Shown here piece by piece: positions 15,444 to 33,297 of a stretch of DNA of 64,000 nt (position 1 is its first letter; each line of letters starts with the position of its first letter). The position numbers were made by a program, and so were the translations under genes. Source of the DNA: Alicyclobacillus herbarius DSM 13609 (lineage in GTDB: Bacteria > Bacillota > Bacilli > Alicyclobacillales > Alicyclobacillaceae); contig NZ_AUMH01000014.1 of assembly GCF_000430585.1 (NCBI RefSeq), positions 1-64,000 on the forward strand, written 5' to 3'. Below the pieces are notes generated by a model. The model saw only the letters and a program-made list of their open reading frames with translations, was not told the DNA's origin and ran no database searches.

Positions 15444-15490
15444 TCGTATAATACGCTCTTACATACGCCTTTTAGATTTCGTATAATACG
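15444..15490. promoter_or_regulatory. Paired 12-nt palindromic repeats before the left recombinase
   Basis: TCGTATAATACG occurs at 15444-15455 and again at 15479-15490, 35 bases apart. Each is essentially palindromic (CGTAT-A-ATACG) and contains TATAAT. They lie 20-66 bases before the likely recombinase start, so they may be promoter -10 elements overlaid with a repressor or recombinase site. Confidence 0.55.
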
Positions 15491-15509
15491 TCAGAGGTTG
15501 TGGGATTCA

Positions 15510-16403: not shown

Positions 16404-16493
16404 CGCTGAAAACCGACTTATTGGTTATGATTTTCTTGTGTCGAATCAATGCGTACGTAAGTGCTGCTGTACATACGAGGGGAGTATTTTTAC

Positions 16494-18119
16494 ATGCCGA
16501 CGCTTCAGTTTAAGGGAAAGTCATTCGTGCAAAATCATCACCTGACAGTGAAATACCATGAACTGATCCCTGTTCCCGAGAAAAGTCTGACGGACAAGGT
16601 ACGTCTTGACGACAACCTAATCATACACGGTGATAATCTGATTGCCTTGAAAGCATTGCTGCCGATATACGCTGGGAAAGTGAAGTGCATCTACATCGAT
16701 CCACCATATAACACAGGCACGGAACATTGGGTTTACAACGACAACGTGAACTCTCCTATGATACGCGACTGGCTCGGAAAGGTTGTCGATAGGGAAGACC
16801 TCACCCGCCACGACAAATGGCTCTGTATGATGATGCCGCGTCTCAAATTACTCCGCGAACTCCTAAGGGAGGATGGGGCAATTTTTGTCAGTTGCGACGA
16901 CCACGAACAACACCGTCTCCGAATGATCATGGATGAAATTTTCGGTGAGGATAATTTCGTTGCCACAATTATTTGGCAGAAGAAATACGCCTCAGCGAAT
17001 GATCATAAATCCATTGCTCCTATGCACGACTTCATTCTGGTTTATCAACGCTCTGCGTCCTTTCGACGAAATCTGCTGCCTCGGACAGAGAAGAAAGATA
17101 GGCAGTACCGATATGAAGATGAACGAGGTGTTTTTCGACTTAGCGACTACACCTGCAACAAAACCGCCGAGGAACGGCCAAACCTGTATTACCCTATTAT
17201 CAACCCCAACACCGGCGAAGAAATTTGGCCAAGTCGAACAAGGGTTTGGGCCTACTCTAAAGAAGTTCATGAACAACATGTGGCCCAAGGGCTGATCTAT
17301 TGGGGCAAAGATGGCCGTGCGAAAGTGCCAGCGTTCAAACGCTATAAAAACGAGTTGCGTGGTGGAGGTGGTATTGTTCCGAATACCTGGTGGACGTTTG
17401 AAATTGCCGGCCACACGGATGGAGCCAAAAAGGAAATTCGCAGTATCCTGGAAGAAGACGGACTTGACTTTATCACTCCAAAGCCGACTCGATTGATTGA
17501 GCGCATTCTTCAGATAGCAACTGATAAGGATTCCATCGTTCTCGATTCCTTTGCTGGTTCCGGTACGACAGCACACGCTGTTCTCGCGCTCAACAAGAAG
17601 GACGGCGGCAATCGCAAATTCATTCTCGTGGAGATGGAGGAATACGCAGATCGTATCACCGCCGAGCGGGTACGTCGCGTGATTCGGGGCGTCCCAGGTG
17701 CCAAGGACGAGGCACTGCGCGAAGGGCTTGGTGGCACTTTTTCGTATTTCGAACTCGGACAAGCCATCGATCCTGAGGGGCTGCTTACGGGAGAACATCT
17801 GCCGCCTTACAAGGAACTGGCCCGTTATATTTTCTATACGGCGACTGGTGAGGAGTTTCGTCCAGAGGCAGTAGATGAATCGCGCTGGTTCATCGGTGAG
17901 AGCCGAGAGTATGAGGTGTACCTCATTTACAAGCCGGACGTGGAAGCACTCAAATCCCTGGCTCTCACCTTAGAGTTTGTGCAGGGGCTTGGCACCCCTA
18001 AAAGCAAGAAGCGGCGGCTCGTGTTCGCACCGGCCCGGTTTCTTTCGGACAAGTACATGGAGGAGTACCAGATTGAGTACGCACAACTGCCTTATGAGAT
18101 GTACCGCGCAAGGGGGTGA
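16494..18119 (+). CDS. mod: Type III restriction-modification DNA methyltransferase (Mod)
   Basis: This protein of 541 residues is an adenine/cytosine-N4/N6 methyltransferase of the beta class: the catalytic motif DPPYNTG (about residue 68) precedes the AdoMet-binding DSFAGSGTTAHAV (about 352). An early HGDNLIALKALL and a central target-recognition region around 160-300 fit type III Mod subunits, although it is shorter than EcoP15I Mod. ATG 16494 has GGGGAG about 10 bases upstream. It ends 6 bases before the helicase-nuclease gene, so the two form an operon. Mod provides sequence recognition and host methylation; the target site cannot be predicted. Confidence 0.9.
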   Translation: MPTLQFKGKSFVQNHHLTVKYHELIPVPEKSLTDKVRLDDNLIIHGDNLIALKALLPIYAGKVKCIYIDPPYNTGTEHWVYNDNVNSPMIRDWLGKVVDREDLTRHDKWLCMMMPRLKLLRELLREDGAIFVSCDDHEQHRLRMIMDEIFGEDNFVATIIWQKKYASANDHKSIAPMHDFILVYQRSASFRRNLLPRTEKKDRQYRYEDERGVFRLSDYTCNKTAEERPNLYYPIINPNTGEEIWPSRTRVWAYSKEVHEQHVAQGLIYWGKDGRAKVPAFKRYKNELRGGGGIVPNTWWTFEIAGHTDGAKKEIRSILEEDGLDFITPKPTRLIERILQIATDKDSIVLDSFAGSGTTAHAVLALNKKDGGNRKFILVEMEEYADRITAERVRRVIRGVPGAKDEALREGLGGTFSYFELGQAIDPEGLLTGEHLPPYKELARYIFYTATGEEFRPEAVDESRWFIGESREYEVYLIYKPDVEALKSLALTLEFVQGLGTPKSKKRRLVFAPARFLSDKYMEEYQIEYAQLPYEMYRARG

Positions 18120-18125
18120 CGCGGG

Positions 18126-20642
18126 ATGATGGAACTCAAGGAGTACCAACAGCGGGCGCTCGCCACCATCGAGGCATATCTGAAGGAACTGCGCATCTGG
18201 CGGGAGAAGTCGCTTGCGCTTCCCGAGGACATGCGTGTTGCGTTTGACTTTCCGGCGCAGGTATGGAGTAAGGTCGTGGGTGGCGTGTACCATGGGAAGA
18301 AGACCGGCGCAGGTGAACCGCTGCCCAACTTCTGCATCAAGGTGCCGACCGGCGGCGGCAAGACGTATCTCGCAGTACATACCATTGACCGCATTCAGAG
18401 TATCTACCTCGAGCGGCAAACGGGCCTCGTACTTTGGATTGTGCCGACCAACCAGATTTACCGCCAGACCCTCTCTTACCTGAGAAACCGCACGCATCCC
18501 TACCGGCAGTTTCTCGATATCGCCACGGGTGGACGTGTGATGGTGATTGAAAAGACGGATCGCTTTACACCACAGGACGTACGGGAACGACTGGTCATCC
18601 TTCTACTCATGCTGCCGTCGGCCAACCGAAAGGACAAAGAGACGCTTAAGTTGTTCCAAGACGCCGGCGGCTTTGAGACCTTCTTCCCGGAGGAAGGGCA
18701 CCGCGAGGAACACGAACGCTGGCTCCAACGCTGGCCAAATCTCGACTACTTTGGTTCGGAAGAAGAGTGGTACGGTCGGCAGATCAAGACCTCCCTTGGA
18801 AACGTACTGCGGATCCTGTCTCCTGTCATTATCCTTGATGAGGGGCAGAAGGCGTATAGCGCCAGTGCCCAAGAGACTATTCGCGGTTTTAATCCCTCGA
18901 TTGTCGTAGAACTTTCGGCCACACCACCCGCAGAGAGCAATGTGCTGGTCAACATCCGCGGACGCGAACTCGACAAGGAAGAGATGATCAAACTCGATCT
19001 TCACGTCACAAATCGCGCCAGTACAAACTGGAAGGATACCCTGGCGGAAAGCGTGGCATGGCGCGACGCGCTGGAAGAAGAAGCAATCCGCTACGAGTCT
19101 AAAACGGGAGTCTACATTCGTCCGATCTGCCTAATTCAGGTGGAACGTACCGGAAAGGACCAGGTGGAGGCCGGTTACATCCACGCACAGCATGTGAAGG
19201 AAGAGTTGATGCAGGTCCACAACGTTCCGGAGGAACAGATCGCCATTAAGTCGAGCGAAAAGGACGATATTGAGGGCATTGACCTTCTATCTCGCGACTG
19301 CCCAATTCGCTACATCATAACTAAACAAGCGCTTCAGGAGGGTTGGGACTGTTCGTTTGCGTACGTACTGACCATTCTCACCAACCCATCATCCAAAACA
19401 GGTCTTACGCAACTGGTAGGTCGGATTTTAAGACAGCCCTATGCAAAGAAAACGGGCGTCAAGGCCCTCGACGAGAGTTACGTGTTTTGCTTCCATCGTA
19501 AGGCGGCGGAACTGTCGAAGGATATCAAGGCTGGATTGGAAGGCGAGGGTCTTGGCGATTTGGTGCACAGCGTTTCGGTGTCTGATAGTATGCCTACAGC
19601 AAATCACCAGAAGACACGGACCGTGGGCGTACGAGAGAAGTTCAAACGCTTCGAGGGGAAGGTATACCTACCAAAGTTCTTCATCGAAGAGGATGGCCGT
19701 CACGAGGAGATCAGTTACGAGATGGATCTAGTACGGCGTATTCGCTGGAGCGATCTTACGCTGAATCGCATACGCACACTCACCCTAAAGCAGAACCAGG
19801 TGGCTGACTGGGAGGAATCGTTCGGATACGGAGACGAGGGGGAATCCGTTACCGAGAAGGAAGCAGTCTTTTATGCAGCACAGGCATCTGTCAATCCGCT
19901 CTTTCTTACACGGCGTATCGAGGATTTAGTACCAAACCCGTGGGTAGCACGAGAGATTGTTGAAAGGGCGCTGTCGATTTTGCGGGAGCGGTACACAGAG
20001 GACGTGATTGCTGCAAATCAGGTGCTCATCGCAACTGAACTCGAGAAGGCCGTGGAGGCGGAGCGAGACGAACTGTGCGAAACGATTTTCCGAGAACTTG
20101 TCCGGCAGGGCCGGCTACGCCTGATCCTGATGGCCGGCAAAGCATATCAGGTGCCGAGCCGGATTGAGATTCCGCAGATGGCTTCGCCGCTCGTCCACCA
20201 TACCGGTAAGCCAGTGCAACTGAGTTTGTTTGATGATCCGGTACCAGAAGAATGGTTCAATGAAACCTTGGAAGCACCGGTAGCCTTATGTCTTGACAAG
20301 CAGGAAAAACTTCTATTTTGGTATCGTAACCTCGTTGGACGGGACTACTATTACGTACAAGGATGGCGTAAGAATCGGGTCTGGCCCGATTTTGTGGCTA
20401 CCAAGAGGTCGGAATCAGATACCGAGGAGTATGACACTATTTACGTTCTCGAGACAAAGGGGGATCAACTAGCAGGGAACCTAGACACGAATTACAAGCG
20501 TAGACTGTTTGATGTCTGCAACGAACTCGCAAAGAAGATGTCGTGGAGCGAATTGGGACTCGAGTTTCCTGAGCGAAAGGTACAATTCCAGGTCATACAG
20601 GAGAACGAGTGGCAACGAGTACTCAATGAGTTATTCGCGTGA
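18126..20642 (+). CDS. res: Type III restriction enzyme Res subunit (helicase-nuclease)
   Basis: This 838-residue SF2 translocase has Walker A VPTGGGKTYL (73-82), motif II LDEGQ near 238 in place of the usual DEAH/DECH, and motif III LSATPP. A helicase C-terminal half includes QEGWDCSFAYVLTILTNP and QLVGRILRQPY. Near the C-terminus WPDFVATK (about 755) and VLETKGDQL (about 778) provide the Asp and E-x-K of a PD-(D/E)XK nuclease. With the adjacent Mod it should cleave DNA carrying unmethylated sites after ATP-dependent communication along DNA. All catalytic signatures appear intact. Two ATGs (18126, 18129) can start it. Confidence 0.9.
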   Translation: MMELKEYQQRALATIEAYLKELRIWREKSLALPEDMRVAFDFPAQVWSKVVGGVYHGKKTGAGEPLPNFCIKVPTGGGKTYLAVHTIDRIQSIYLERQTGLVLWIVPTNQIYRQTLSYLRNRTHPYRQFLDIATGGRVMVIEKTDRFTPQDVRERLVILLLMLPSANRKDKETLKLFQDAGGFETFFPEEGHREEHERWLQRWPNLDYFGSEEEWYGRQIKTSLGNVLRILSPVIILDEGQKAYSASAQETIRGFNPSIVVELSATPPAESNVLVNIRGRELDKEEMIKLDLHVTNRASTNWKDTLAESVAWRDALEEEAIRYESKTGVYIRPICLIQVERTGKDQVEAGYIHAQHVKEELMQVHNVPEEQIAIKSSEKDDIEGIDLLSRDCPIRYIITKQALQEGWDCSFAYVLTILTNPSSKTGLTQLVGRILRQPYAKKTGVKALDESYVFCFHRKAAELSKDIKAGLEGEGLGDLVHSVSVSDSMPTANHQKTRTVGVREKFKRFEGKVYLPKFFIEEDGRHEEISYEMDLVRRIRWSDLTLNRIRTLTLKQNQVADWEESFGYGDEGESVTEKEAVFYAAQASVNPLFLTRRIEDLVPNPWVAREIVERALSILRERYTEDVIAANQVLIATELEKAVEAERDELCETIFRELVRQGRLRLILMAGKAYQVPSRIEIPQMASPLVHHTGKPVQLSLFDDPVPEEWFNETLEAPVALCLDKQEKLLFWYRNLVGRDYYYVQGWRKNRVWPDFVATKRSESDTEEYDTIYVLETKGDQLAGNLDTNYKRRLFDVCNELAKKMSWSELGLEFPERKVQFQVIQENEWQRVLNELFA

Positions 20643-20816
20643 GAGCGCGTGGTGCCACGGGTTCGTCCAAGGATGAAGGTGTTTTTGATAACGAATACGT
20701 AAGGAAGTTATTGTTCGTTTACCCAAAGTGGTTCTGGGAACATTGTTGATCTTGTAAAACTCGAAGCGTGCTCGAAAGACAAAACGATTAGTAGGCGTTT
20801 TGGAGGAATCGTACCG

Positions 20817-23354
20817 ATGAATGCGATTGATTACATCCGACAGTCAGCCATCTTCGACGATTCTCCATGGATAAAGCGTCTGGTGGCTAAAGTGTTAGAG
20901 GATGAATCAATTGAAGGAGCCATCGAAGAGATCCTATCAGGAACTTCGACATATGAATCGGCAGCCGCAAGAGAAAGTGTTGTCGAACAACAATCTGTAG
21001 GTGTGCCAGCCAAAGTACACGTTGATCGCATCGTGTCGATAGATCACATTAGCAACATCGGTCTGGTCGACGTTCAGAATCGCATTATGTGTAACGAAGG
21101 GTTAAATATTTTTTACGGCAAAAACGGGGCCGGAAAAAGTTCAGTATATGCTGCTCTCTGTAGAGTGCTGGGAAAAAAGGATAAGAAAGTAATTCCTAAT
21201 CTCTACAATGATTCCAACGAATCTTCAGTACAGATTACTTACTTGGACGAGTCCGGGGTAGAGCACACGTTAACTTGGCAGATGGGCTCAGAAGAAAACC
21301 CTGAGACAGATGTAATGGTGTTCGATACCAGCATAGCAAATGTTTTGGTTGAGCAAGATCAGGTCAACGATTTTAACCTTGCTCATTTGAAAGTTGAATA
21401 CTTCACTTACATACAAAATTTGCTTGAGGGACTGGAACTTAGATTGGAAAGCAGCCTTAGTCATCATAAATCGGTGATGTCTTCGTATGAAACACGCTTG
21501 GCCGAGAAGGTACCGTTTGTACTAACGAAAGAAGGCTTGACACGGGAATGGGTATTACAACATGACTTCTCCGAGAGTGACCGCGTGGAACTGGAGAGAA
21601 TTACCCAGAAACTTGCTCGTTTACGAGTTTCTCCATCAGTCGAGACGGTAAAAAATCTTGAAAATGCGAAACTCGCGGTACAACGGATTCTTGGTTTGTT
21701 TGGATCATTTACTGAAAACGGTGAGTGGATACCAACATATAATCAGGATTATGTAGCCGAATTGAATCGGCTAATAGAAGACTTTCTCATAGCGAAATCG
21801 CTGTTCGAGGCCAAAGGGAATACTGTTGCAATAATTCCCGAAGGGTGGATTAAGAGTGAGACGTGGAGGGCTTTCATTACCGCTAGTATCAACTTTGTGA
21901 ATTCCCTGGGAGATAAGCAAGAGGAATTTACACAAAAGACATGTGTCTATTGCTTACAGCCTTTGCAAACTGAACGGTCAAAGCAGTTGATGATCCAATA
22001 CCGGGCATTGCTACAAGAGCATGGAGACAAGGTCAAAAGTTTAGAGCGTCAACTTCAGCAGTATGTCAATTCATTAGGAAAAGTAAGAGAGGCCCTTCGA
22101 GACTGTTATACGACCATAACAATTATTGAATCAGCGTTTGATCATATTGGCCGTTCAGGTGAGACATGTATTGAAAGTGACGAAGTGGAGTACGCACTTA
22201 AAAGTATCCAATCTTCCCTCGAAGAACGTATCCCCATTAAAGAAGATGTTCTGAAGAATATTGATTCTTTTTGTCAATATTACAAAGACGTTTTGCAACA
22301 GGTGGAACATGTTTTATCGAAACTCGCAGAAGGTGAGCAGGAACGGAAGCGCCAAGAAGAGGAACTTCAAGCCTTGGCTCAGCCGCTACAGCAGCGTTTC
22401 GATCTATATGAAGCGAAGTCCGATGTTTTGGGCTATATAGACGCACGCGAATCGGTATCGCGGATTTCTCAAATGTTGTCGGATATTTCAAGGGTTAAAC
22501 GAGCGGTTTCCAATCTGAAGACCAAATTCACCAACGAAGAAGTGATACAAACGTTTGAAGTTCTCCTGAAAAATGAGTATCGAAAACTTGGCTTTGAACC
22601 TCCAACCATTTGGAGGTTGCGGTCAAGTACAACGCGGGGTGTGACGAAACGTGTTTATAGCCTTAATGACCGTAAACTATCACAGATTTTCAGTGAAGGT
22701 GAGCGCAAGATTCATGCTTTAGCAGATTTCTTTGCGGAATGCCAACTAAACAAATTCAAAGGCGTGTATATATTTGATGACCCAGTAAACAGCCTGGATG
22801 AAGAGAGAATGGAATACGTTGCCCGACGAATCGCAGAGTTAGTTGAGCAGGGGAATCAAGTCTTCGTTTTTACGCATAACCTAGTATTCCTAAACTTGCT
22901 TATCGGTACCGACGATCATAAGGTCAACAACATTACTCGTATTAACCGCCAAGTCGTCATCGATTCAGATGTCAAATTGGGCGATAAAAATGTAATGAAA
23001 AAGAAACTCGATGAAATAGAGCGAAGGATGAAGATTCTCTCTCAACGCAACGAAGGAGATATTTCAGAATGGGAACTCCGAAATATTTACGATTTAATGA
23101 GTGGATACATTGAAGACTACGTCGAAATTATCTTGCTCAAAAACATCATCAATCGCTATCGGCCCAACATAAGGATGCATACGCTAGGAAGCCTCGAGTC
23201 AATCGATACATCTGCGATAAAAGGTATCTTGGATTTGTATAACCAAACAAGTAGAAAGGGGTCTCGTCATTCCCAACCTATTGGAGCCCCTGTACCAACA
23301 TATGCTGAACTTGTGCAACATGTGGCTGTGTTAAAGTCGCAGTATCATTACTGA
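20817..23354 (+). CDS. Zinc-hook ABC ATPase, RloC-like (AAA_13) putative defence effector
   Basis: This 845-residue SMC/Rad50-like protein has Walker A FYGKNGAGKSS (about 99-109), followed by long coiled coils interrupted by a zinc hook CVYC at 376-379. The ABC signature FSEGERKIHALADFF (about 625), Walker B GVYIFDDPVNSLDEE (649-663) and H-loop VFVFTHN (about 685) follow. The layout matches AAA_13 proteins such as RloC, a phage-activated anticodon nuclease with a Rad50-type hook. The last 150 residues hold the candidate effector, but I cannot place the Arg-Glu-His anticodon-nuclease triad with confidence; SRHSQP near the end is a candidate His. It starts 175 bases after res, and the DNA is AT-richer than its neighbours. 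Confidence 0.75.
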   Translation: MNAIDYIRQSAIFDDSPWIKRLVAKVLEDESIEGAIEEILSGTSTYESAAARESVVEQQSVGVPAKVHVDRIVSIDHISNIGLVDVQNRIMCNEGLNIFYGKNGAGKSSVYAALCRVLGKKDKKVIPNLYNDSNESSVQITYLDESGVEHTLTWQMGSEENPETDVMVFDTSIANVLVEQDQVNDFNLAHLKVEYFTYIQNLLEGLELRLESSLSHHKSVMSSYETRLAEKVPFVLTKEGLTREWVLQHDFSESDRVELERITQKLARLRVSPSVETVKNLENAKLAVQRILGLFGSFTENGEWIPTYNQDYVAELNRLIEDFLIAKSLFEAKGNTVAIIPEGWIKSETWRAFITASINFVNSLGDKQEEFTQKTCVYCLQPLQTERSKQLMIQYRALLQEHGDKVKSLERQLQQYVNSLGKVREALRDCYTTITIIESAFDHIGRSGETCIESDEVEYALKSIQSSLEERIPIKEDVLKNIDSFCQYYKDVLQQVEHVLSKLAEGEQERKRQEEELQALAQPLQQRFDLYEAKSDVLGYIDARESVSRISQMLSDISRVKRAVSNLKTKFTNEEVIQTFEVLLKNEYRKLGFEPPTIWRLRSSTTRGVTKRVYSLNDRKLSQIFSEGERKIHALADFFAECQLNKFKGVYIFDDPVNSLDEERMEYVARRIAELVEQGNQVFVFTHNLVFLNLLIGTDDHKVNNITRINRQVVIDSDVKLGDKNVMKKKLDEIERRMKILSQRNEGDISEWELRNIYDLMSGYIEDYVEIILLKNIINRYRPNIRMHTLGSLESIDTSAIKGILDLYNQTSRKGSRHSQPIGAPVPTYAELVQHVAVLKSQYHY

Positions 23355-23700
23355 ATTGAATCAAAGCCGGGATACCATTAGATGTAATGGGAATTCAAGG
23401 TCTACGTATGCTATATACGATTGGACGTACGCCAAATCATTATTTTGCGCATTTTTTCTTGGGCAATGTATTCCTTCCGCATGAGGACGTGTTGGGTCGG
23501 CTCTTGATGGGGCTGGGTGACAACGACCCTACATTGAAAGCGTGCCAACCCGGTCAAATAGTCGGCGGACGCGAAGGGTGTCGTATTTCGCATGAAAATT
23601 GTCGTTTTACGGTTCTCCCGAGTCTCGATTCCGAGGCGCCAGTGATCTAAGTTTCAGACATTCCGCCGTTCGAGACGCAAACCACCCTTGAGGGATCATC
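23355..23700. other. Stretch without a supported gene
   Basis: Short open frames exist on both strands (for example 23387-23650 plus, 87 codons), but none has a family resemblance. It separates the defence cluster from the convergent lipoprotein gene. It may hold a decayed gene. Confidence 0.45.
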
Positions 23701-24432
23701 TTATTGCTTTGGTTGGCCGATGAACTTTTGGTACTCGGCTTCGTTCATACCGAGCACCTCTAGTACCGTGGTGGAAACACTATCAACCTGCGGTTGAGAG
23801 TGATACACCGGGATGATGCCTGCCTCCACCGCCTTCTTTACAGGTACGAATTCTGCAACGATAGTCGCATCGGGAGGGATATCGGTTGCTGAAATGGGGG
23901 GCCAATCCCGTCCTGCTGCCCCCTGTTTCAAAAATACCGTTCCCTGAAGCGTAATAAACAGCGTGGCGTGGTTTAGTTCCTGTGGATGGGTGTCCGTCCA
24001 CTTTTCGTTCTTGTAAAGATAGGGTGTCCACTTGGACGGAATCTGCCAGTGCTCATAGTCGTATTGCTGACCATACACCCCTTGATTGATCGCCAGATTC
24101 GGATTGTACAATGTCACCCATTGCTCTTGTTTCATCAGCGCATCGGTTAAAACCCAATTCGCGTCTGGCCATGGGCTGGCAGCCGTGGATTCCTGTGGCT
24201 TGTTAGTCGATATCGTGTTCCCTGATGTGGTGTTATCCGACGTAGTGTTATTCGATTCCGCGTAAGCGTTATTTGCTACCGCGTTTCCCTCAGTAGAGAT
24301 ATTGGCGGGCACAGAACCACTAGAAGCATTCGGGGAGACCGCGACATGATTTGGGCTGCAGCCAAATAGAGAGAGAAGCCCAAATAGATTGAGAATACCG
24401 ACGTCGGCAAGTGCATACATTCTACGCCGCAC
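23701..24432 (-). CDS. Putative lipoprotein of unknown function
   Basis: This 243-residue protein starts with MRRRMYALADVG and a hydrophobic segment ending in the lipobox LSLFGC, so it should be lipidated at Cys 25. A Ser/Thr/Asn-rich linker with repeated NTTS-like units follows (about 30-85), typical of surface spacers. A globular C-terminal domain contains WVLTDALMKQEQWVTLYNP, EHWQIPSKWTPYLY and VVAEF-like strands. I recognise no family. GTG 24432 is preceded by AAAGGGG at 7 bases. It is encoded inside the integrative element, possibly as a surface-exclusion or cargo factor, but that is speculation. Confidence 0.72.
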   Translation of the reverse strand: MRRRMYALADVGILNLFGLLSLFGCSPNHVAVSPNASSGSVPANISTEGNAVANNAYAESNNTTSDNTTSGNTISTNKPQESTAASPWPDANWVLTDALMKQEQWVTLYNPNLAINQGVYGQQYDYEHWQIPSKWTPYLYKNEKWTDTHPQELNHATLFITLQGTVFLKQGAAGRDWPPISATDIPPDATIVAEFVPVKKAVEAGIIPVYHSQPQVDSVSTTVLEVLGMNEAEYQKFIGQPKQ

Positions 24433-24597
24433 GGCGATGCCCCTTTCGCAGTCTTGGCCGGATTTGAATAATCTGGCTGATGCTACTCGGCGTCATTATC
24501 ACATTCTTGGATGATCACGTCAACCATTGGCTCCTCACGTCAACTGGGGGGTTCGTGGCGTGTTCCCAGGGTGTGTACCCATGGCGTGTCCCCATGG

Positions 24598-24667
24598 GGG
24601 GATATTCCTCACGAGGGGGATGTCTCTCACGAGGGAGATGTTCCTCGGGGGGAATGTCCCTCAGAAG
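24598..24667. repeat. Degenerate 16-18-nt G-rich tandem repeats
   Basis: About four units of the form GGGGATGTTCCTCACGAG follow one another (24598, 24616, 24634, 24652), with substitutions and one shorter unit. Just before, shorter GTGTTCCCAGG-like units occur three times from 24559. Confidence 0.7.
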
Positions 24668-24708
24668 GGGAGCAAGTATCGCCGAGGGAGTAGCGCCACA
24701 GGAGGGCC

Positions 24709-24770
24709 GCCTACGGGAACGCTGCCTACGGGGACGCTGCCGACGGGAAAGGCCTCCTACGGGGAAGGCT
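24709..24770. repeat. Four 15-nt tandem repeats
   Basis: GCCTACGGGAACGCT, GCCTACGGGGACGCT, GCCGACGGGAAAGGC and, after two extra bases, CCTACGGGGAAGGCT. The units are clearly related, and this could be an iteron-like array beside the GTACAA cluster. Confidence 0.75.
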
Positions 24771-24963
24771 GCTGTTGGAGTATCGACACCGCTGACGCGA
24801 AGTTCCTAGCAACGTGACTACCCGCGTCCGGAGAAGGGGTTCTGGGGACTATGTGGAAAGGGGGCACGAGGCATCCTACGAGGCATCGCACCTTGGGGGC
24901 CCCTTCCCCCTCGTTTTTCTACCAAGGCGGAGAGGCGGGCAGTGCGGTGTGTGGCGGTCCAGT

Positions 24964-25249
24964 GTACAAAAAACGGGGGCTTTGTACAACGTCGGTACAA
25001 AACTTTCGAAGGGCTGAGACTCCCGAAAACCCTTGTGCCACAAGGGAATCCGGGCTCCCGTACAAAAGTACAAGACCTTCGTCAACTCCTTAGGGGGACC
25101 ATCACCTCCTCTTGTAGCAATAAACAAGAGGGGAGGAGCCCTGAAAAACGTTGTACTTTTGTACGCCACCCAACTTCCCGCACGGGGCGCGGGTTTTCGG
25201 GTTGTGGTAGGCAATAAAACCTTGTACAACCAATGTACAAGTATTGTAC
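24964..25249. promoter_or_regulatory. Cluster of ten GTACAA/TTGTAC boxes (candidate iterons or operators)
   Basis: The hexamer GTACAA or its complement occurs at 24964, 24984, 24995, 25060, 25068, 25151, 25159, 25222, 25235 and 25244. Two of the sites are the full palindrome TTGTACAA (24982, 25222). GTACAAAAGTACAA at 25060-25073 is the exact reverse complement of 25151-25164. This density is far above chance for a 286-base stretch and suggests binding sites for a replication initiator or repressor encoded by the element. Confidence 0.7.
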
Positions 25250-25575
25250 GCAAGGCTTGGGGTGTCATCACCAGGATGAAACTCGCAGCCTATGGCCAAA
25301 CCAGGACCCGCTATTCCCCTGGAAGTTCCCATGATTGCCTTATATACTTGGGATTGTCGGTTGTTCAAACGTTTGAAGATGTGCGCTGCCCCGCTTGTAT
25401 GGGATTGTGGTGGTTTGCGGGGATGGACAACGTCTCGACGACGACCTCAACTTTGACGAACTTGTTGTTGGGCCCGCTACCATCGATCGGCTTGTCTTGA
25501 ATTATGTTAAAAAATTCCGATATTGTTGAATTGGATCGACTGAGTGCTTTAGCCGAGAGAAGGAAGGTGTTCTGA

Positions 25576-25881
25576 ATGGCAACTGTCGTGTTTTGTCCGG
25601 TGTGTTGCGGTGAGTATCTGCTCGGAGAGGTATTTAACCCGGGACAAGTACCTCAAGATATCCCGTCAGATGAGTTGATGGTCTGTCCCGAGGCAACGAT
25701 TGTCTGCGATGCAGGTAAGGGAACAGTCGACCGTCGCAGTGTCGTGGTGCGATTACCTAAAGTGGGTAAGGCAGCGGTGGATGATTTGTCGGGGGTTGGG
25801 CAGGTTGCGCTCATCTGCAGGGAATGTTACGCAATCGAACCGGTCGATGAGCGCATTGTTCATGTTGTTGACAACGTATGA
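25576..25881 (+). CDS. Small cysteine-rich protein, possible zinc ribbon
   Basis: This 101-residue protein opens with VVFCPVCCGEY and has a later Cys at MVCPE and ICRECYAIEP, giving CxxC pairs that could bind zinc. A well-placed AAGGAAGG precedes the ATG, and a stem-loop follows the stop, so it looks like a real single gene. I do not recognise the family. It is the first gene to the right of the GTACAA cluster and may be regulated by it; a role in replication control is speculative. Confidence 0.65.
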   Translation: MATVVFCPVCCGEYLLGEVFNPGQVPQDIPSDELMVCPEATIVCDAGKGTVDRRSVVVRLPKVGKAAVDDLSGVGQVALICRECYAIEPVDERIVHVVDNV

Positions 25882-25901
25882 TGGGTGCGGATGATAGGTT
25901 C

Positions 25902-25929
25902 GGAGGGAATTTGACCGGCCTATCCCTCC
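25902..25929 (+). terminator. Stem-loop after the cysteine-rich gene
   Basis: GGAGGGA (25902) pairs with TCCCTCC (25923) around a 14-base loop, about 20 bases after the stop. There is no long T-run. The 300 bases beyond it hold no supported gene. Confidence 0.5.
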
Positions 25930-26117
25930 CTTATGGTTACCTCTGAACGCGCCTTGCAGTGTTTACATTTCATTTGCGTTCGTGCCTTCGCATTTACGGT
26001 TTGCAAACGTACACAAAGGTCCCGTTACCCTTGGTAATGCTGTCTTGCGTCCCTTCAAAATGGGTCAGGTACTTTACAAGCGTTGAGGTACACGTGTTCG
26101 TCTACGACTACGACTAC

Positions 26118-26129
26118 GTCTACGTAGAC
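26118..26129. repeat. 12-nt perfect palindrome in a TACG-rich stretch
   Basis: GTCTACGTAGAC is a perfect palindrome at the end of a run of CTACGA-like steps (26101-26130). It has no gene context other than the gene-free gap after the cysteine-rich gene. Confidence 0.6.
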
Positions 26130-26193
26130 ACGGCGCTGTGAGGACCGGATCAGGGGACTGCGGACATAGGGCTTCGCGTGATGGCGCCAGTGG

Positions 26194-26481
26194 TTAGATT
26201 TCCGGTTTCTTCGTGGCAGCCCCTGGTGCTTTGAATCGCTGATGGCGTGAAACTTCAGTCAGACGACGCGGTCTTGCTGGTGGAATAGGCTCCCCAACAT
26301 GCACCCTGCCCCAACGAATGACCGTTCCGTCCGGAAGGTGCAGGGTCTTTTGCGCAATGGTGCCCGGCAAGCCCAGGACTCTTCTTACAAAGCACATCAA
26401 ATTGCTCACCAGAGTCATCACTCCCCGCGCTCTGGTCATTGCCGTAATTTGGCGGCATACAGCATGCAGTTGATAACACAT
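26194..26481 (-). CDS. Uncertain small ORF
   Basis: This is a 95-codon open frame with no recognised family and no good ribosome-binding site at its first ATG. An internal GTG-ATG (about residue 21) has GGGGAG nearby and would give about 75 residues. The C-terminus is basic and proline-rich. It may be a real accessory gene in the run of minus-strand frames at 26.2-27.2 kb, or chance. Confidence 0.3.
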   Translation of the reverse strand: MCYQLHAVCRQITAMTRARGVMTLVSNLMCFVRRVLGLPGTIAQKTLHLPDGTVIRWGRVHVGEPIPPARPRRLTEVSRHQRFKAPGAATKKPEI

Positions 26482-26517
26482 CGAAGGTGACCTAGGAATC
26501 TTTGTCGGTCTTGGTGT

Positions 26518-26970
26518 TTATCGTCTCGTCGAATCTCCGAACATGGCGCGCAGGGCAACTTCTGTAAACTCGGATTCGTACTTTTGGATCAATTGCCGCG
26601 TATACGATGGGCGATTGCGCTTTTCCTCAATTTTACGCAGGACTTGTGGAAGCATCTCATTCACTGTCACGTTGTCACTTGTTTTTCTGGAATCGGTCAC
26701 GGCTACGTCAACAAGACGCATCAAGATGTCCTGAATGTCGTCCATCGTCTCTCCGCTTATCCTTTGTAGCAGCCGCGCAAAAACACTCGTGATGAGTTCT
26801 GGGCACTCACTGTCACGGATGCATTCGGCGAGCCGGGGAATCGATGAACGCACTACTTCAAGATCGTCGTCGCCAAGTGCATGCACGTTGATCACCTCGC
26901 TCGATGGATGAATCTCCGTTTTGGAGTCCCGCGATCCAACATGGCTCAGCGCCATGATCGCGAAACGCAC
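26518..26970 (-). CDS. Helical protein of unknown function
   Basis: The open frame encodes up to 150 residues. The sequence is strongly helical and acidic in the middle (RSSIPRLAECIRDSECPELI, ETMDDIQDILMRLVDVAV) and ends basic, with RQLIQKYESEFTEVALRAMF. An internal GTG at 26886 is preceded by GAGGTG at 6 bases and would give a 122-residue product, possibly the true start. No family is recognised. It is transcribed opposite to the resolvase and partition genes, toward the origin-like region, so a regulatory or copy-control role is conceivable but unproven. Confidence 0.55.
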   Translation of the reverse strand: MRFAIMALSHVGSRDSKTEIHPSSEVINVHALGDDDLEVVRSSIPRLAECIRDSECPELITSVFARLLQRISGETMDDIQDILMRLVDVAVTDSRKTSDNVTVNEMLPQVLRKIEEKRNRPSYTRQLIQKYESEFTEVALRAMFGDSTRR

Positions 26971-26986
26971 CTAAACAAGGTGAAAA

Positions 26987-27208
26987 TCATCCCTTTGACG
27001 CGATTATCTCACTTTCCGGGCCGAATATCTCTTGCATGCTTGTTAGTTCTCCCGTCTTAGAGTGGCCACCGAAAGAGGAACGGGCGATTCGGACAACGTA
27101 ACGATCTTTGCTGTTGTAGAGGCTCAAAGAACCGCATGGCCTCTCAAGCCCTTGGTAAATGGATTGGTTTACGCTCCTCGTGGTTCCACACGATGACCGA
27201 AAGCGCAT
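26987..27208 (-). CDS. Uncertain small ORF upstream of the helical protein
   Basis: This is a 73-codon frame whose C-terminal half (SLYNSKDRYVVRIARSSFGG) looks protein-like. It contains GAGGAG internally but no ordinary start codon at the right distance after it. It ends 17 bases before the next frame on the same strand. No family is recognised; it may be the first gene of a small operon. Confidence 0.3.
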   Translation of the reverse strand: MRFRSSCGTTRSVNQSIYQGLERPCGSLSLYNSKDRYVVRIARSSFGGHSKTGELTSMQEIFGPESEIIASKG

Positions 27209-27583
27209 AAACCTAAGAGATGACGTACCCTTGGCAACAACCGGGGGCTAGTGAGAATTGCAACTTGGCGAATGCAGTCCGTTTGCGAAAAAAATTTTCT
27301 TAAGGAGTTGAAATGCGTCGTTTTAGCATGGTAGGATGTGCTTGCAAAGGTGAACATCCTCCTGATTCCTCCGGCATGTGCTCCTCGGAATCACCGATTT
27401 GTTTTCTTCCGCTCGGCAACGAGGGCTGTTTGTCAAACACGAATGTCACGACGGTCTCCTGTCCTCACTCGTCCGTATTTAATCGGGAAAGGCTTTGGTC
27501 CACACCCGTCTATTACACCCTTCTTGGATGCGTGTGGTTATGGCGGTACAACCGCCGAATTTCATGAGCAGAAGGGTGATTTC
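27209..27583. promoter_or_regulatory. Divergent control region with GGCGGTACAACCGCC palindrome
   Basis: No supported gene is present, although the resolvase frame stays open upstream. A perfect 15-nt palindrome GGCGGT-ACA-ACCGCC at 27542-27556 contains the same GTACAA hexamer as the origin-like cluster and ends 27 bases before the resolvase start, a good operator position. Confidence 0.5.
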
Positions 27584-28069
27584 ATGCAGAGATTGTACCT
27601 CAGTCTTGATCCGAGCCAAGCAAGCACCGGATGGGCCATCATCGGTGTTGCGAAGCGAACCCCACGTTTTGTCGCTGGCGGATTCATTGATACCAAAACC
27701 GCAAACAATCCCCTTCGAAGTATTCGCCAAGAGGTGCAACGCCTACTGCAAACGTACCCCATCGAGCGCTCTGTTGCAAAGGAACGCATGTTTTACAGGA
27801 ACAACCTCGCAACCCTGGCGCTTGCCAAGGTGCACGGCGTAATTGAGGAGGTGTTGGACGGATACGACGTGTTTGACATCCCGTCTTCAACCGTCCGCAA
27901 GATCGTTGGCGGACATGGTTGTGCGTCAAAAGACTTGGTGGCTTCAGGGGTCCGGCGACTCCTCGGATTACCGAGAACCTTTGTATTCGACCGGTGGGAC
28001 ATCTCCGATGCGGCTTCTGTAGGCATCACCTACCTCTATCAAGCCGGACTCATCGACATCCCCGCTTAA
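27584..28069 (+). CDS. RuvC-like Holliday junction resolvase
   Basis: This 161-residue RNase H-fold nuclease has the four acidic RuvC residues at nearly the same spacing as E. coli RuvC: Asp 9 in LSLDPSQASTGWA, Glu 67 in VAKERMFYRNN, and Asp 139 and Asp 142 in WDISDAASVG. It should cleave four-way junctions formed during replication or recombination of the element. ATG 27584 has AGAAGGG 7 bases upstream; earlier in-frame codons are probably not translated. Chromosomal RuvC would be elsewhere, so this is an element-encoded copy. It begins the plus-strand resolvase, ParM, ParR and primase series. Confidence 0.82.
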   Translation: MQRLYLSLDPSQASTGWAIIGVAKRTPRFVAGGFIDTKTANNPLRSIRQEVQRLLQTYPIERSVAKERMFYRNNLATLALAKVHGVIEEVLDGYDVFDIPSSTVRKIVGGHGCASKDLVASGVRRLLGLPRTFVFDRWDISDAASVGITYLYQAGLIDIPA

Positions 28070-28273
28070 CCACTGTTGTTTTCAGTTGGCGGAACACCAC
28101 ATCTTTCGGCTCCTTTGGCTTTCCAGGCCCCTTCGCGCCCTGCAAACATTCACCCAGCGTAGAGTCCCCACTTTCTTTACGGTTTTGATCTACATGAAGT
28201 TGCCGCCTACAGACGGCACGTTTACGAATACGTTTTGCTCCATACACACCGAGAAAAGAAAGGATGTTGATAT

Positions 28274-29344
28274 ATGGCTACACTACGGTTGGCAGCGGTG
28301 GACGCTGGAAACGATGCGGTCAAGGCAGTCTTCGGGACTTTGAGGAATCGATTGTGGCTTCCCAACATCATAGCGGAAGAAAAGCAGCAACGTCCGCTGA
28401 TTGAACTGGAAAGAGACCCGCTGGATGGTCTCCACGTCGAAATTGTCAGCAATGCATTGAAGAGCGGTGGAGGAACATACGTCGTTGGGAACCTCGCGAC
28501 GACTCACCCGCTTGCCCAAGAAGTGGGGATCGAGACCGTCAAGAGTGACAGCGATCAAAACATCATTGTGGCCTTGACGGCCCTGGCCATCGATGCAGTA
28601 CAGAACTTTGCGGACCATGGAGGCGTCATCGATGCTGCGTATCACTTGGCCTGCGGATTGCCGCTTACCGAGGTAAAGCAGGGGAAGAAACAACGGTTTG
28701 CCGACCGGCTTAAGGGAAGACATGAGGTCCGCTTCTTAGATACGCCCTGGTACAAAGGTAAAACTGTACGCATCCGGTTGGAGGAAGTCGCGGTATTTGC
28801 GGAAGGGCACGCAGGTATTGTCGATCTCACAACGGACGACCAGGGAAACTTGCGGAGTCCAGAGTTTGGCGTTGCCACGATTCTCGTCGCGGACATCGGC
28901 GGCCAAACGTCCGATGTATGCATAGCCGACATGTCAAAAGGGGGCAAACTCGACAACTACCACAGTGACAGCCTGCGCGAAGGGGTTTCGCCGTACTTGG
29001 ACGTGATCGCCGAGCGGGTGAGTAGGGAAATTGGCTATCGATTCAAAAATCGACAAGATGTCGTCAGGACGCTCACTCACCCAATGCCGGAACTGCGAAA
29101 CAGGGTATCTTTCCGGCGGATCTCCATTGATGATATTGTTCGTGAGGAACTTGGCAAACTTGCGGTGATTGAGTATGACTTTCTCCGCCGACTGTTTACC
29201 AAGGCGGGTCACATTGACATGGCCCACATGGTGGGCGGCGGCAGTGTTCTGCTCCGTCCATACCTGGAATCATTGAACACTGAAGGCTATCCATTGCGGT
29301 TCTTGCCAGACGCTCAGGCATCGGTGTGGTTGAACGCGGTCTAG
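28274..29344 (+). CDS. ParM/StbA-like actin ATPase for DNA segregation
   Basis: This 356-residue actin-fold protein has a phosphate-1 motif in AAVDAGNDAVKAVFG at the N-terminus, a phosphate-2 motif in LVADIGGQTSDVCIAD (about 205-220) and an adenosine-binding MVGGGSVLL near 320. It belongs to the plasmid and phage ParM/Alp group rather than MreB or FtsA. Such filaments push plasmid copies apart when capped by a ParR-centromere complex. AGAAAGG precedes the ATG. A ParR-like gene follows 43 bases later, and a tandem repeat that could be the centromere lies beyond it. Its presence in an integrated element implies a segregating extrachromosomal phase. Confidence 0.85.
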   Translation: MATLRLAAVDAGNDAVKAVFGTLRNRLWLPNIIAEEKQQRPLIELERDPLDGLHVEIVSNALKSGGGTYVVGNLATTHPLAQEVGIETVKSDSDQNIIVALTALAIDAVQNFADHGGVIDAAYHLACGLPLTEVKQGKKQRFADRLKGRHEVRFLDTPWYKGKTVRIRLEEVAVFAEGHAGIVDLTTDDQGNLRSPEFGVATILVADIGGQTSDVCIADMSKGGKLDNYHSDSLREGVSPYLDVIAERVSREIGYRFKNRQDVVRTLTHPMPELRNRVSFRRISIDDIVREELGKLAVIEYDFLRRLFTKAGHIDMAHMVGGGSVLLRPYLESLNTEGYPLRFLPDAQASVWLNAV

Positions 29345-29387
29345 TACTTCAAACTGCTGCAGATGCGGCTTCAGGCGGTTGACGAGG

Positions 29388-29729
29388 ATGAGTAATCAAA
29401 AGTTGGTTGTGGGCGAGCCATTTACCTTTCGTGTGCCTTTGGGAGCACCGATGAACGTTGTGGCATATTTGAATCACTACCGACAGGCCCACTCAAAAGG
29501 CTTCAGTGAGCACCTCTTCTTCCTGCTGCAGAGGGGGATGGAGGCGGAAGGTATTGTGGCTCCTCCTCCATCGCCCTCATCCCGGCGAACGGCCGCATCA
29601 GCCCCTTCAACATCCGCGCAACCATCCCGTGTTACTTCGCAACTCACCTCATCAAACACCGGAGCGACACCTGAAAGTAAATCGGGTGGTCGTACGGTAT
29701 CCCACCTTGATCTGAGCAATTTTGACTAG
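29388..29729 (+). CDS. ParR-like centromere-binding adaptor (predicted)
   Basis: This protein of 113 residues follows the ParM-like gene. The N-terminal 55 residues (FTFRVPLGAPMNVVAYLNHY, GFSEHLFFLLQRGMEAEG) look like a small DNA-binding domain of ribbon-helix-helix type. A disordered Ser/Pro/Thr-rich linker follows, then a short conserved-looking tail SHLDLSNFD. Linker plus C-terminal peptide is how ParR proteins contact ParM filaments. The assignment rests mainly on position and architecture, not on strong sequence identity. ATG 29388 has AGGCGG about 9 bases upstream. Confidence 0.6.
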   Translation: MSNQKLVVGEPFTFRVPLGAPMNVVAYLNHYRQAHSKGFSEHLFFLLQRGMEAEGIVAPPPSPSSRRTAASAPSTSAQPSRVTSQLTSSNTGATPESKSGGRTVSHLDLSNFD

Positions 29730-29768
29730 ACGGTGACCGCTGGTCGCCTGGGACGAGGCTCCTGGTGC

Positions 29769-29828
29769 GACCAGCGCTATCGGGACCAACGCCATCGGGA
29801 CCAGTGCCACCAGGACCAGCGCCATCGG
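29769..29828. repeat. Four 15-nt tandem repeats after the ParR-like gene (candidate parC)
   Basis: Four units related to GACCAGCGCCATCGG start at 29769, 29784, 29799 and 29814, each differing at one to four positions. They lie between the ParR-like stop and the primase start, in no recognised gene. Arrays like this are typical centromere sites, but in known ParMR systems parC is usually upstream of parM. Confidence 0.6.
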
Positions 29829-29918
29829 ATCCCCTTTCAACATCCTTCCCCACACCCTCCTTATTCCGCGCCCTCCCTTGCGCGGACAATTTAACCCCCC
29901 AAAGGAGGACGTCATACA

Positions 29919-32063
29919 ATGCAACGCTCTTTCTATCCATTCGAAGATTGGCTCATCGAAGTGCTTCCGTACCCCATTCGTTGGTCTGGAGAAGAAGGTC
30001 GTACGCGGTGCCCATTTCATGATGATCGTAACCCATCTCTGTCAGTGAACAGGGCATCTGGTCTGTTCTATTGCCACGGTTGTGGCAAAGGTGGAACAGC
30101 GGAGACCCTGGCCCGGGAACTCGGTGTTCCGGCGCCCGGTGGCAGTTCGGAACATGGCGTGTCCACGTATACGTGTACGTCAAGTGTCTCCGGCTCAAGA
30201 GGCATTAAGTGGCGAAATCACGAGAGAGAACACATCTACGAGGATGAGCATGGTTCCCCTGTTTTGCTGGTCGGTGTCGACGGCACCGGTGCACAAAAAA
30301 GAGTGTGCCAGTATCACTGGGATGGGGAAAACTGGCTCGTCGGAGCCGCGGCCCGGAAAGTACCCTATAACCTGCCTGATGTCTTGGAGACAATTCGTAT
30401 AGGTCTTCCCATTTACATCGTGGAAGGAGAAAAGGACGCTGATACGCTCGGTGCGTACAAAATAACGGCGACGACCAACCCGTGCGGTGCAGGCAGTTGG
30501 CCCAAGGATAAGGCGTTTAATCGATACTTCGAGGGAGCAGACGTCATCATCATTCCTGACAACGACTTGCCTGGGCGTATGCATGCAAACGAAGTAGCCC
30601 AAACCCTCAAGGGAATTGCCAAGAGGATAAGAGTACTCACGTTGCCTGGTTTACCCGAAAAGGGAGACGTGACAGATTGGGTGAACCTCGGAAATGACAT
30701 TACCCTGCTGGAGCGACTTTCAAAAGACCCGCGATGGGTAAAGGAACTCGAAGTCTCCTATCCAAATTTGGCTGCGACGTCTGCAGCACCCCGAGCGGAA
30801 TGGCTCGATGAGCGTGGAAGAATCATCACGGCAAGACTCGGTGGCGCGATTTTGCGCCAATTGCCGGTGATGTATTACAAAGGGGTAGTTTACGTATACA
30901 AAGACGGGGTGTATCGACCTCACGGGGAAATGGAGATCCGCCGTCTGGCTCAAAAGATGCTGGGCGAACACAGCCGCAGTACGTACGTTGAGGAGGCGTT
31001 AAAGTGGATCTGCAATGAACGTTACGTGGAACCGGATCACGAGCCGAATCCAGATGACGGACTCATCAACGTGAAAAACGGTCTGCTCGACTGGAAAACA
31101 GGAGCCTTAAAGCCGCACTCGCCAGAACGATTCTCAACGATTCAAATCCCAGTTGTGTACGACCCGACGGCGAAATCCCTAGAAATCGAGCAGTTCTTCA
31201 AGGACGTGTTGCCCGAGGATGTCGTGCCCTTGATGTATGAAATCTTTGGCTACTGTCTGGTCCCCACTGCGCGTTTCCAGAAAGCGTTCTTGCTAACTGG
31301 CGAAGGATCCAATGGAAAATCAACGCTCATCAACTTACTCAGTGCCTTCGTGGGCAGCGAGAACGTCACGAACATCCCACTTCACGATCTCGAACACAAT
31401 CGTTTCAAACTAGCCGGTCTCCGCGACAAGTTAGTGAACACGTTCGCAGACCTGCAGTACCGCGCCTTGGAGAAGAGCAGTACCTTTAAATCGGTCGTAT
31501 CAGGTGACCGTGTCAATGCCGAATACAAGGGTAAAGACGCCTTCGACTTTCGGCCATTCGCGAAACTGATTTTCTCCGCCAATGAATTGCCCTCCAGTCG
31601 CGACGTGTCAAAGGCGTTCTTCCGTCGGTGGATTGTGATTCCTTTCCCCTATACTTTTGGGAATGGGCCGAATGATAAGAAGCCAGATCCGACGCTGGAA
31701 GAGCGGTTAAAGTTTCCGGAAAACTTGAGCGCCCTCCTGAACCTTGCCGTTGAGGGACTGCGGCGATTGGACCGTCGCGGAGGATTCCAGGAGACACCAT
31801 CGACTCGAAAGGCGCTTGAAGACTATATTCGGGACGCGGATAGTGTGGCGGCATTCATTGATGAATGCGTAGCACAATCCGGAACCGTCGCCACCAAGGC
31901 TTTGTACGCTGCGTACGAGCAGTGGTGCGTTGATTCCGGGGTTCATCCGCTCAAGAAGGTCCGATTCAACAAGCGCCTTCAAGAGTATTTCCCGGGTCTC
32001 AAAAAGAAGAGAGCCCACGGGGGTTCAGAGTATTGGGTCGGGATTACCGTTCTCAACGGCTGA
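29919..32063 (+). CDS. Primase-helicase, CHC2 zinc finger plus D5/P4-type SF3 helicase
   Basis: This 714-residue replication protein has an N-terminal DnaG-type zinc finger (Cys 31, His 34, Cys 52, Cys 55 in CPFHDDRNPS...YCHGCG). A TOPRIM-like domain follows with IYIVEGEKDADTL (about 165) and VIIIPDND (about 206), then a D5_N region and an SF3 helicase with Walker A TGEGSNGKSTL (about 460) and sensor KLIFSANELPSS. The fusion of primase and helicase is typical of satellite phages and integrative plasmids such as P4. AAAGGAGG precedes the ATG. It is the likely initiator or replicative helicase of the element and is the last plus-strand gene, followed by a strong hairpin. Confidence 0.88.
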   Translation: MQRSFYPFEDWLIEVLPYPIRWSGEEGRTRCPFHDDRNPSLSVNRASGLFYCHGCGKGGTAETLARELGVPAPGGSSEHGVSTYTCTSSVSGSRGIKWRNHEREHIYEDEHGSPVLLVGVDGTGAQKRVCQYHWDGENWLVGAAARKVPYNLPDVLETIRIGLPIYIVEGEKDADTLGAYKITATTNPCGAGSWPKDKAFNRYFEGADVIIIPDNDLPGRMHANEVAQTLKGIAKRIRVLTLPGLPEKGDVTDWVNLGNDITLLERLSKDPRWVKELEVSYPNLAATSAAPRAEWLDERGRIITARLGGAILRQLPVMYYKGVVYVYKDGVYRPHGEMEIRRLAQKMLGEHSRSTYVEEALKWICNERYVEPDHEPNPDDGLINVKNGLLDWKTGALKPHSPERFSTIQIPVVYDPTAKSLEIEQFFKDVLPEDVVPLMYEIFGYCLVPTARFQKAFLLTGEGSNGKSTLINLLSAFVGSENVTNIPLHDLEHNRFKLAGLRDKLVNTFADLQYRALEKSSTFKSVVSGDRVNAEYKGKDAFDFRPFAKLIFSANELPSSRDVSKAFFRRWIVIPFPYTFGNGPNDKKPDPTLEERLKFPENLSALLNLAVEGLRRLDRRGGFQETPSTRKALEDYIRDADSVAAFIDECVAQSGTVATKALYAAYEQWCVDSGVHPLKKVRFNKRLQEYFPGLKKKRAHGGSEYWVGITVLNG

Positions 32064-32080
32064 CCCCTTGGTTGTACACC

Positions 32081-32118
32081 AGCGGGCGGGAGGGTCTGGA
32101 AAGGCTCGCCCGCCCGCT
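32081..32118. terminator. Strong hairpin between primase and integrase genes
   Basis: AGCGGGCGGG (32081) pairs perfectly with CCCGCCCGCT (32109). It lies 18 bases after the primase stop and 79 bases before the convergent integrase stop, so it can insulate both. No T-run is obvious. Confidence 0.6.
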
Positions 32119-32196
32119 CCGGGCATGTGAAGCGTAGTAGGCCTCCTTCTGCGCGATAGACCCTCGGATCGGTCATCCACGAGACATACCCCTGGT

Positions 32197-33120: not shown

Positions 33121-33160
33121 AAAACCCACTCCTTCCCGTGTTTTGCACAGGAGAGAAGTG
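33117..33160 (-). terminator. tRNA-Pro terminator overlapping the integrase start
   Basis: On the minus strand CCACTTCTCTCCTGTG, loop CAAAA and CACGGGAAGGAGTGG form a long stem followed by GTTTTTTG, a textbook rho-independent terminator for the tRNA. The integrase ribosome-binding site AAGGAG is in the 3' arm and its TTG start codons directly follow the T-run. Confidence 0.8.
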
Positions 33161-33198
33161 GTCTTTGGGGCGGGGAAAGTGGTCTGGTGCGACCACTT
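33156..33198. promoter_or_regulatory. AAGTGGTC repeats, candidate integrase arm sites
   Basis: AAGTGGTC occurs at 33156-33163 and 33177-33184 (21 bases, two helical turns, apart), and its complement GACCACTT at 33191-33198. Related copies sit at the left flank at about 13779, 13797 and 13812-13819. Their symmetric placement next to both cores fits integrase arm-binding sites. Confidence 0.5.
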
Positions 33199-33246
33199 GT
33201 GTCGTTCCCCTTCAAAAATCCCCGAGAATCCAGTCACATCAAGGAT

Positions 33247-33297
33247 TGGTCGGAATGACAGGACTTGAACCTGCGACCTCACGGTCCCGAACCGTGC
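33247..33297. repeat. Right attachment repeat
   Basis: This copy is identical to 13841-13891 over 51 bases. It contributes the anticodon arm through the CCA end of the intact tRNA gene, so integration regenerates a functional tRNA. Confidence 0.95.

Follow-up and report, generated by a model that had tools for sequence, protein, structure and literature searches.

The pri-rep-ori modules of SaPI and PICI elements combine a primase-helicase initiator of the P4/D5 kind with an origin directly downstream of rep, in which two sets of iterons flank an AT-rich core, and their initiator alleles vary (PMC6092414, PMC7581432). Cch2 is reported to bind its putative origin through the C-terminal domain, and DUF927 helicases are of the SaPIbov1 Rep or Cch kind (PMC7581432). 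Phage P4, with its alpha protein and ori-crr, joins a bacterial-type primase and a helicase to a C-terminal winged helix that binds repeats (PMC6092414, PMC4234260). The Sulfolobus plasmid pRN1 depends on a stem-loop of 100 nt that follows the gene and remains functional when relocated, and one stem mutant functioned only after the symmetry of the stem had been restored (PMC4234260). The authors describe the pRN1 origin as a stem-loop without iteron structure and report that the initiator was not seen to bind this region specifically (PMC4234260).

Here we analysed a 64,000-nt stretch of the Alicyclobacillus herbarius genome (the window) and propose that a cluster of GTACAA boxes within it is very probably the iteron-type replication origin of an integrated 19.4-kb element, displaced from the rep gene that it would serve (Table 1). 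The exact 51-bp repeats that bound the element lie at 13841-13891 and 33247-33297, the right copy being inside a tRNA-Pro(CGG) gene (33247-33322). A second tyrosine recombinase (15429-16403) is encoded near the left end of the element, upstream of the type III restriction-modification genes, with an Mrr-like nuclease beside it. Phage-satellite packaging genes, as in PICIs, were not noticed in this element and we do not class it as a PICI; its content also differs from that of phage P4, which we compared by description only.

Table 1 Coordinates of the GTACAA array and of the element that carries it (positions in the window)
Feature	Position	Strand	Remarks
GTACAA array, proposed iteron origin of replication	24964..25249		
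GTACAA matches, left half	24964+, 24982-, 24984+, 24995+, 25060+, 25068+		
GTACAA matches, right half	25151-, 25159-, 25222-, 25224+, 25235+, 25244-		
Left outer boxes	24964..25000	+	24964+, palindrome 24982-24989, 24995+
Left-arm hairpin	25022..25054		with CCTTGTGCCACAAGG (25031-25045); GGGTTTTCGGG on minus strand
Left inner iteron pair	25060..25073	+	GTACAA-AA-GTACAA; 14-mer GTACAAAAGTACAA
77-bp core	25074..25150		strong hairpin about 25105-25137
Right inner iteron pair	25151..25164	-	exact inverse of 25060-25073
Right-arm hairpin	25177..25201	+	ends in GGGTTTTCGGG; left-arm motif inverted
Right outer boxes	25222..25249		palindrome 25222-25229, 25235+, 25244-
CGTCTACG/CGTAGACG boxes, candidate actin centromere	26094..26134		type beside actin genes in related elements
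Integrated element, 19.4 kb	13841..33297		between two exact 51-bp direct repeats
Type III restriction-modification genes	16461..20642	+	MTase 16461-18119, REase 18126-20642
AAA ATPase, candidate defence family PDC-S06	20817..23354	+	
RuvC-like Holliday junction resolvase	27587..28069	+	ORF open from 27338; start inferred from domain
ParM/Alp7A-like actin	28274..29344	+	
P4-family primase-helicase, proposed initiator Rep	29919..32063	+	714 aa
Tyrosine integrase	32197..33282	-	adjoins attR

The array spans 286 bp and contains GTACAA at ten physical sites, two of which are full TTGTACAA palindromes, with 12 strand-wise matches in all; the tenfold hexamer, the two palindromes and the exactly mirrored 14-mer of the original prediction, which had been made from the letters of the DNA, were all recovered. 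Counted from the first box, the matches stand at offsets 0>, 18<, 20>, 31>, 96> and 104> in the left half and 187<, 195<, 258<, 260>, 271> and 280< in the right half, a mirror image in which either half has its own outer group and inner tandem pair. Two iteron sets flank a core, as in the PICI/P4-type module. The inverted inner segments would form a perfect stem of 15 bp, with 105 bp between the outer ends of the 14-mers, and by its sequence the window therefore has a predicted inverted-repeat stem-loop of about 100 nt like that of a pRN1-type origin. Each arm also carries a hairpin bordered by GGGTTTTCGGG, the arms being inverted relative to each other, and within the 64 kb exact matches to NGGGTTTTC[AG]GG occur at these two arm hairpins only. 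Folding of the segment as single-stranded DNA gave z = -5.5, with none of 200 shuffles equally good, bearing out the strong hairpins that had been predicted.

Dinucleotide shuffles of the 286 bp (n=5,000) contained 0.3 GTACAA on average and at most 4, the runner-up 6-mer anywhere in the window has a count of 5 per 300 bp, and the repeat score of the array is 20.1 against 6.7 for the next cluster in the element. The concern, raised at the outset, that the hexamer might be equally dense elsewhere in the genome did not hold, as a background sample of 20 stretches of 20 kb (400,000 bp) contained 0.415 GTACAA per kb and at most 2 per 286 bp; in the same sample 6-mers with at least three different letters never exceeded 7. 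The rest of the element contains 18 GTACAA in 19.5 kb (0.93 per kb); the two flanks, which measure 13.8 kb and 30.7 kb, contain 4 and 8 (0.26-0.29 per kb) and are about three times sparser.

Two further features of the original prediction stood in part. The tandem repeats said to flank the array are present on the left, where three adjoining degenerate arrays with units of 13, 18 and 15-16 bp occupy 24556-24769, whereas on the right we found only weaker ones (25878-25904 and 26099-26125). The 15-nt palindrome with GTACAA before the RuvC-like gene exists (GGCGGTACAACCGCC, 27542-27556), but its link to the array is unsupported; it forms a GC hairpin with GTACAA over the centre and does not repeat the array. 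At Rfam gathering scores no known RNA was found in the array, which speaks against a riboswitch or other known RNA there, and the only matches in the window were a tRNA and, outside the element, a c-di-AMP riboswitch (RF00379, 84 bits) at 1695-1844 on the minus strand.

The proposed initiator contains a DnaG-type zinc ribbon, a phage-primase-like region, a D5-type helicase and a predicted C-terminal winged helix. It belongs to the P4 family by TIGR01613 (229.8 bits, cut-off 108.7), also matches D5_N and Pox_D5, and matches PDB 7ola/7om0 (E 1.6e-25), which we take to be the SaPI5 protein; judged by these profiles, it is a primase-helicase of the P4 family, the initiator type of the PICI/P4-type module. 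An AlphaFold model of the C-terminal 90 aa (pLDDT 80.5) has the RFX DNA-binding domain as its best structural match (E 7.5e-5) and predicts the winged helix that initiators of this module carry; the full-length model was poor (pLDDT 58.8) and was left out of the analysis. Unlike the SaPI/PICI origins and the arrays of close relatives, the GTACAA array lies about 4.8 kb upstream of rep, with no repeat cluster in the region after this gene, and its core is not AT-rich (A+T 48%, against 49% for the element). Position after rep and an AT-rich core are the two usual features that this array, which is of a known kind, lacks.

We searched 2.9 million virus contigs and 398 genomes of the class for the pattern GTACAA-N2-GTACAA inverted at 65-95 bp, which revealed matches in three virus contigs and in two of the class genomes, the window's own and G235. 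Two of the four other arrays lie beside a primase-helicase and one about 3 kb from one. A VapE-like helicase immediately precedes the array of L071, and about 0.5 kb separates the G235 array (L099, 10134-10405) from the DUF927 primase/helicase before it. The start of a DUF5906/PriCT protein is about 3 kb from the L101 array, and none of the L102 proteins tested was recognised as a primase. The G235 array shares with the window the box, the outer triplets, the inner pair, the mirror image and a core of similar size, although it adjoins a DUF927 rather than a D5-type helicase; outer boxes, including the G235 triplets, were not required by the search pattern. The expectation that related elements would carry the cluster had a mixed outcome: its layout recurs with other boxes in the close Rep relatives L041, L024, L082 and L026, and the exact GTACAA layout is present in only 2 of 398 class genomes, of which one is the window's own. 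Because exact conservation of GTACAA in the class was confined to these two genomes, we compared layouts instead.

Homologues of Rep were found in other genomes, and in many of them the densest short repeat lies near the end of rep. When the short-repeat clusters of each locus were ranked, the strongest one lay immediately downstream of rep in 11 of 21 Rep loci, against 0.55 expected. The ten failures were L028, L029, L033, L035, L038, L040, L042, L044, L046 and the window, which fails because nothing lies after its rep. Eligible loci had a Rep match reaching residue 640, and L025 lacked DNA downstream of rep. A further 24 loci had been removed before the test, namely shorter cuts or duplicates of contigs that were already represented and six short stretches without a longer cut (L018-L023, about 2.9-4.0 kb), and the plasmids L123-L131, fetched later or duplicates, are left out of the test.

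The boxes differ from locus to locus, with CATACAG in L041, GGTGACA in L024, TGCGCAA in L026, CGTCTTA in L082, GGTGGAC in L031, TGACGCAA in L045, GGTAACAG in L036, and others. K-mer scans revealed no GTACAA boxes in the arrays of close Rep relatives, and L041, L024, L082 and L026 have the layout in common with the window. The Rep proteins of L041, L024 and L082 are 44-48% identical to that of the window over the full length of the latter, and the arrays of these three loci and of the window contain a CCTTG-N5-CAAGG hairpin. The wider pattern CCTTG-N3-8-CAAGG has 10 strand-wise matches (5 hairpins) in the four arrays, compared with 10 in the remaining 394 kb of the loci and another 10 across 400 kb from the window's own genome, and the hairpin is absent from 17 of the 21 arrays tested, which include the near-duplicate pairs L026/L027 and L053/L063. 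L096 was set aside from this count because it had been found by that hairpin, with TTTTC behind it, in the virus collection; it carries an AGTTACA array adjoining a Toprim primase, and L095, the only other match to the hairpin pattern in that collection, has no array.

Among the arrays that were not selected for GTACAA, 17 of 18 have neighbouring boxes facing opposite ways around a central gap of 47-135 bp, and 15 of these 17 gaps measure 66-114 bp. The script takes the largest such gap above 40 bp, and array limits and motifs were set by hand from k-mer scans; the exceptions are L037, with only 17, and L053, which passes at 47 bp and is doubtful, its main gap not being inverted. The comparison omits L026, whose box is itself a palindrome, and L032, L096 and L101. 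Of four plasmids inspected, pRN1 and L131 were entered for their clear inverted boxes, and pHEN7, which has a 10-bp inverted pair, and the Haloquadratum plasmid L130, in which no clear array follows rep, were omitted.

The window, L041, L031, L045, L042, L046, L125, L124, pRN1 and L131 have inner pairs spaced by 8-10 bp on either side, and in L070, L071 and G235 they are present by selection. Perfect inner stems of 15-18 bp run through the spacers in the window, L031, L045, L046, L125, pRN1 and L131, and stems of only 6-7 bp in L041, L024, L042, L036, L054, L053, L082, L127, L124, L029 and L126. In arrays not selected for GTACAA, 16 of the 21 spacer bases within inner pairs are complementary (P 1.2e-6 at 0.25 chance). 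L042 (0/3) and L124 (1/3) are counter-cases, and differing pair spacings prevented the comparison for L041 and L054. Seven of nine other cores measured exceed their own locus in A+T by more than 5 points.

Plasmids extend the comparison of positions. The array of the autonomous plasmid pSR11 (L125) directly follows rep. Three plasmids have candidate arrays off this position: that of pHTUR06 (L127) immediately precedes rep, that of a Thermaerobacter plasmid (L124) is 0.6 kb upstream of the gene, and in pGEOTH02 (L126) the distance to rep is about 4.3 kb. An array 4.8 kb from rep may thus not be unique, the last three being linked to Rep by layout only. On the strength of the mirror-layout arrays near the genes of Rep relatives, the hairpin common to the array and three close relatives, and the primase-helicases at or near three of the four other GTACAA arrays, the putative iteron origin, one of the two readings originally offered, is well supported by the comparison with relatives.

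We infer that Rep binds GTACAA and that the array fires, in a two-ring model that also assigns roles to the hairpins. The element would first excise, and the C-terminal winged helix of Rep would bind the GTACAA boxes, whose two inverted sets would bring a pair of helicase rings into a head-to-head arrangement. The centre of 105 bp, consisting of the inner pairs and the 77-bp core and capable of a 14-15 bp stem, would then melt or extrude, and the helicases would unwind outward while the primase part primes both strands. Such an origin would give a mobile, defence-carrying element a concrete, clonable start site, and would supply a layout rule with which integrated elements, plasmids and phages could be searched for origins, by which any hexamer in a mirror-image set around a core is sought both near and away from the P4-family gene.

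The layout may also bear on pRN1, which our plasmid search returned as a relative. The 21-nt stem after orf904 of pRN1 (L128, about 3338-3440) contains TGTCCA twice per arm, 9 bp apart; plasmids of this Sulfolobus family resemble the window in having two tandem boxes inverted around a loop of 58-77 nt, and differ from it in that pRN1 has an archaeal-type primase and no outer boxes were recognised there. We count this inner-pair plan, and the continued function of the pRN1 origin after relocation, in favour of the array as an origin. The stem mutant and the lack of observed specific initiator binding speak against a pure iteron reading of pRN1, where pairing and boxes may both matter. We tentatively suggest, as a possibility rather than the expected outcome, that replicons of the P4/SaPI and pRN1 types, bacterial and archaeal alike, share one origin plan, in which two tandem iterons would be inverted around a core of 60-135 bp and the sequence bound as iterons would be that of the extruded stem. 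The box sequence could then be a fast-changing address, with the layout and partly the stem pairing conserved, and the origin could become separated from rep, as proposed for this element. If true, this plan would explain why the essential pRN1 stem seemed free of iterons and would make stem-loop versus iteron origins of this initiator family directly testable; it was not found stated in the parts of the literature covered by a limited search, and we make no claim of priority.

The second reading originally offered, a multi-operator control region whose boxes are bound by a repressor or activator encoded by the element, draws on the palindromic TTGTACAA boxes and on the location of the array between divergent ORFs at 24432(-) and 25576(+), between which there is no sizeable ORF (the largest in 24433-25575 has 155 aa, with smaller ones besides). 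We nevertheless consider it improbable, for ten mirror-symmetric boxes around a 77-bp core with arm hairpins resemble the arrays just downstream of rep genes, and a Pfam search of 14 element proteins revealed no separate HTH regulator, although a small or unknown one may exist. The exact inverted 14-mers 77 bp apart could also be read as the ends of a miniature transposon (MITE), with terminal inverted repeats of 14 bp at 25060 and 25164. This we reject as barely conceivable: further boxes follow beyond the pair in mirror order, the one additional genomic copy of the 14-mer (at most one mismatch) stands alone inside an apparent sugar-binding protein gene (frame read by eye), and no second inverted pair was found in the genome, where a MITE would be expected in several copies.

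Actin-type partition systems use repeat arrays, and the array might instead be the centromere (parC) of the ParM/Alp7A-like actin, acting through an unrecognised adapter protein. The actin gene lies 3 kb from the array, with no GT[AC]TACG box within 500 bp upstream of it, and the main result against the origin, which could tie the boxes to something besides Rep, comes from the G008 element. Its left-half array of GTACA boxes (L084, 2613-2722) has offsets 0, 20, 31, 97 and 105, compared with 0, 20, 31, 96 and 104 in the left half of the window, and its actin is 53% identical to that of the window, yet we found no clear right half of the array and no recognisable Rep in this element, in which a 794-aa ORF has a weak primase match only (E 0.0021). 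The half-array layout, a pattern drawn after seeing it, was found nowhere else in 1.58 Mb of sequence. The G008 half array may be what is left of an origin that decays once rep has been lost, or its boxes may serve another protein.

We still regard a centromere as unlikely. Directly upstream of the actins of 12 loci, which include the window and G008, three from one genome and two from another, GT[AC]TACG, a box type picked after the clusters were seen, is enriched (35 boxes within 6.0 kb, compared with 85 over 220 kb of other sequence), whereas GTACAA is not (3 against 142). The boxes of a ParM/Alp7A centromere would be expected beside the actin gene, as in relatives, where the GTACAA array does not lie, and the window carries CGTCTACG boxes at 26.1 kb, 2.1 kb from its actin. 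The layout and hairpin of the array match those of Rep-linked arrays, in line with the proposed replication origin. Locus L092 contains at 3-283 a regular 13-bp tandem repeat with 22 TACTTATA boxes, about 2.9 kb from an actin gene.
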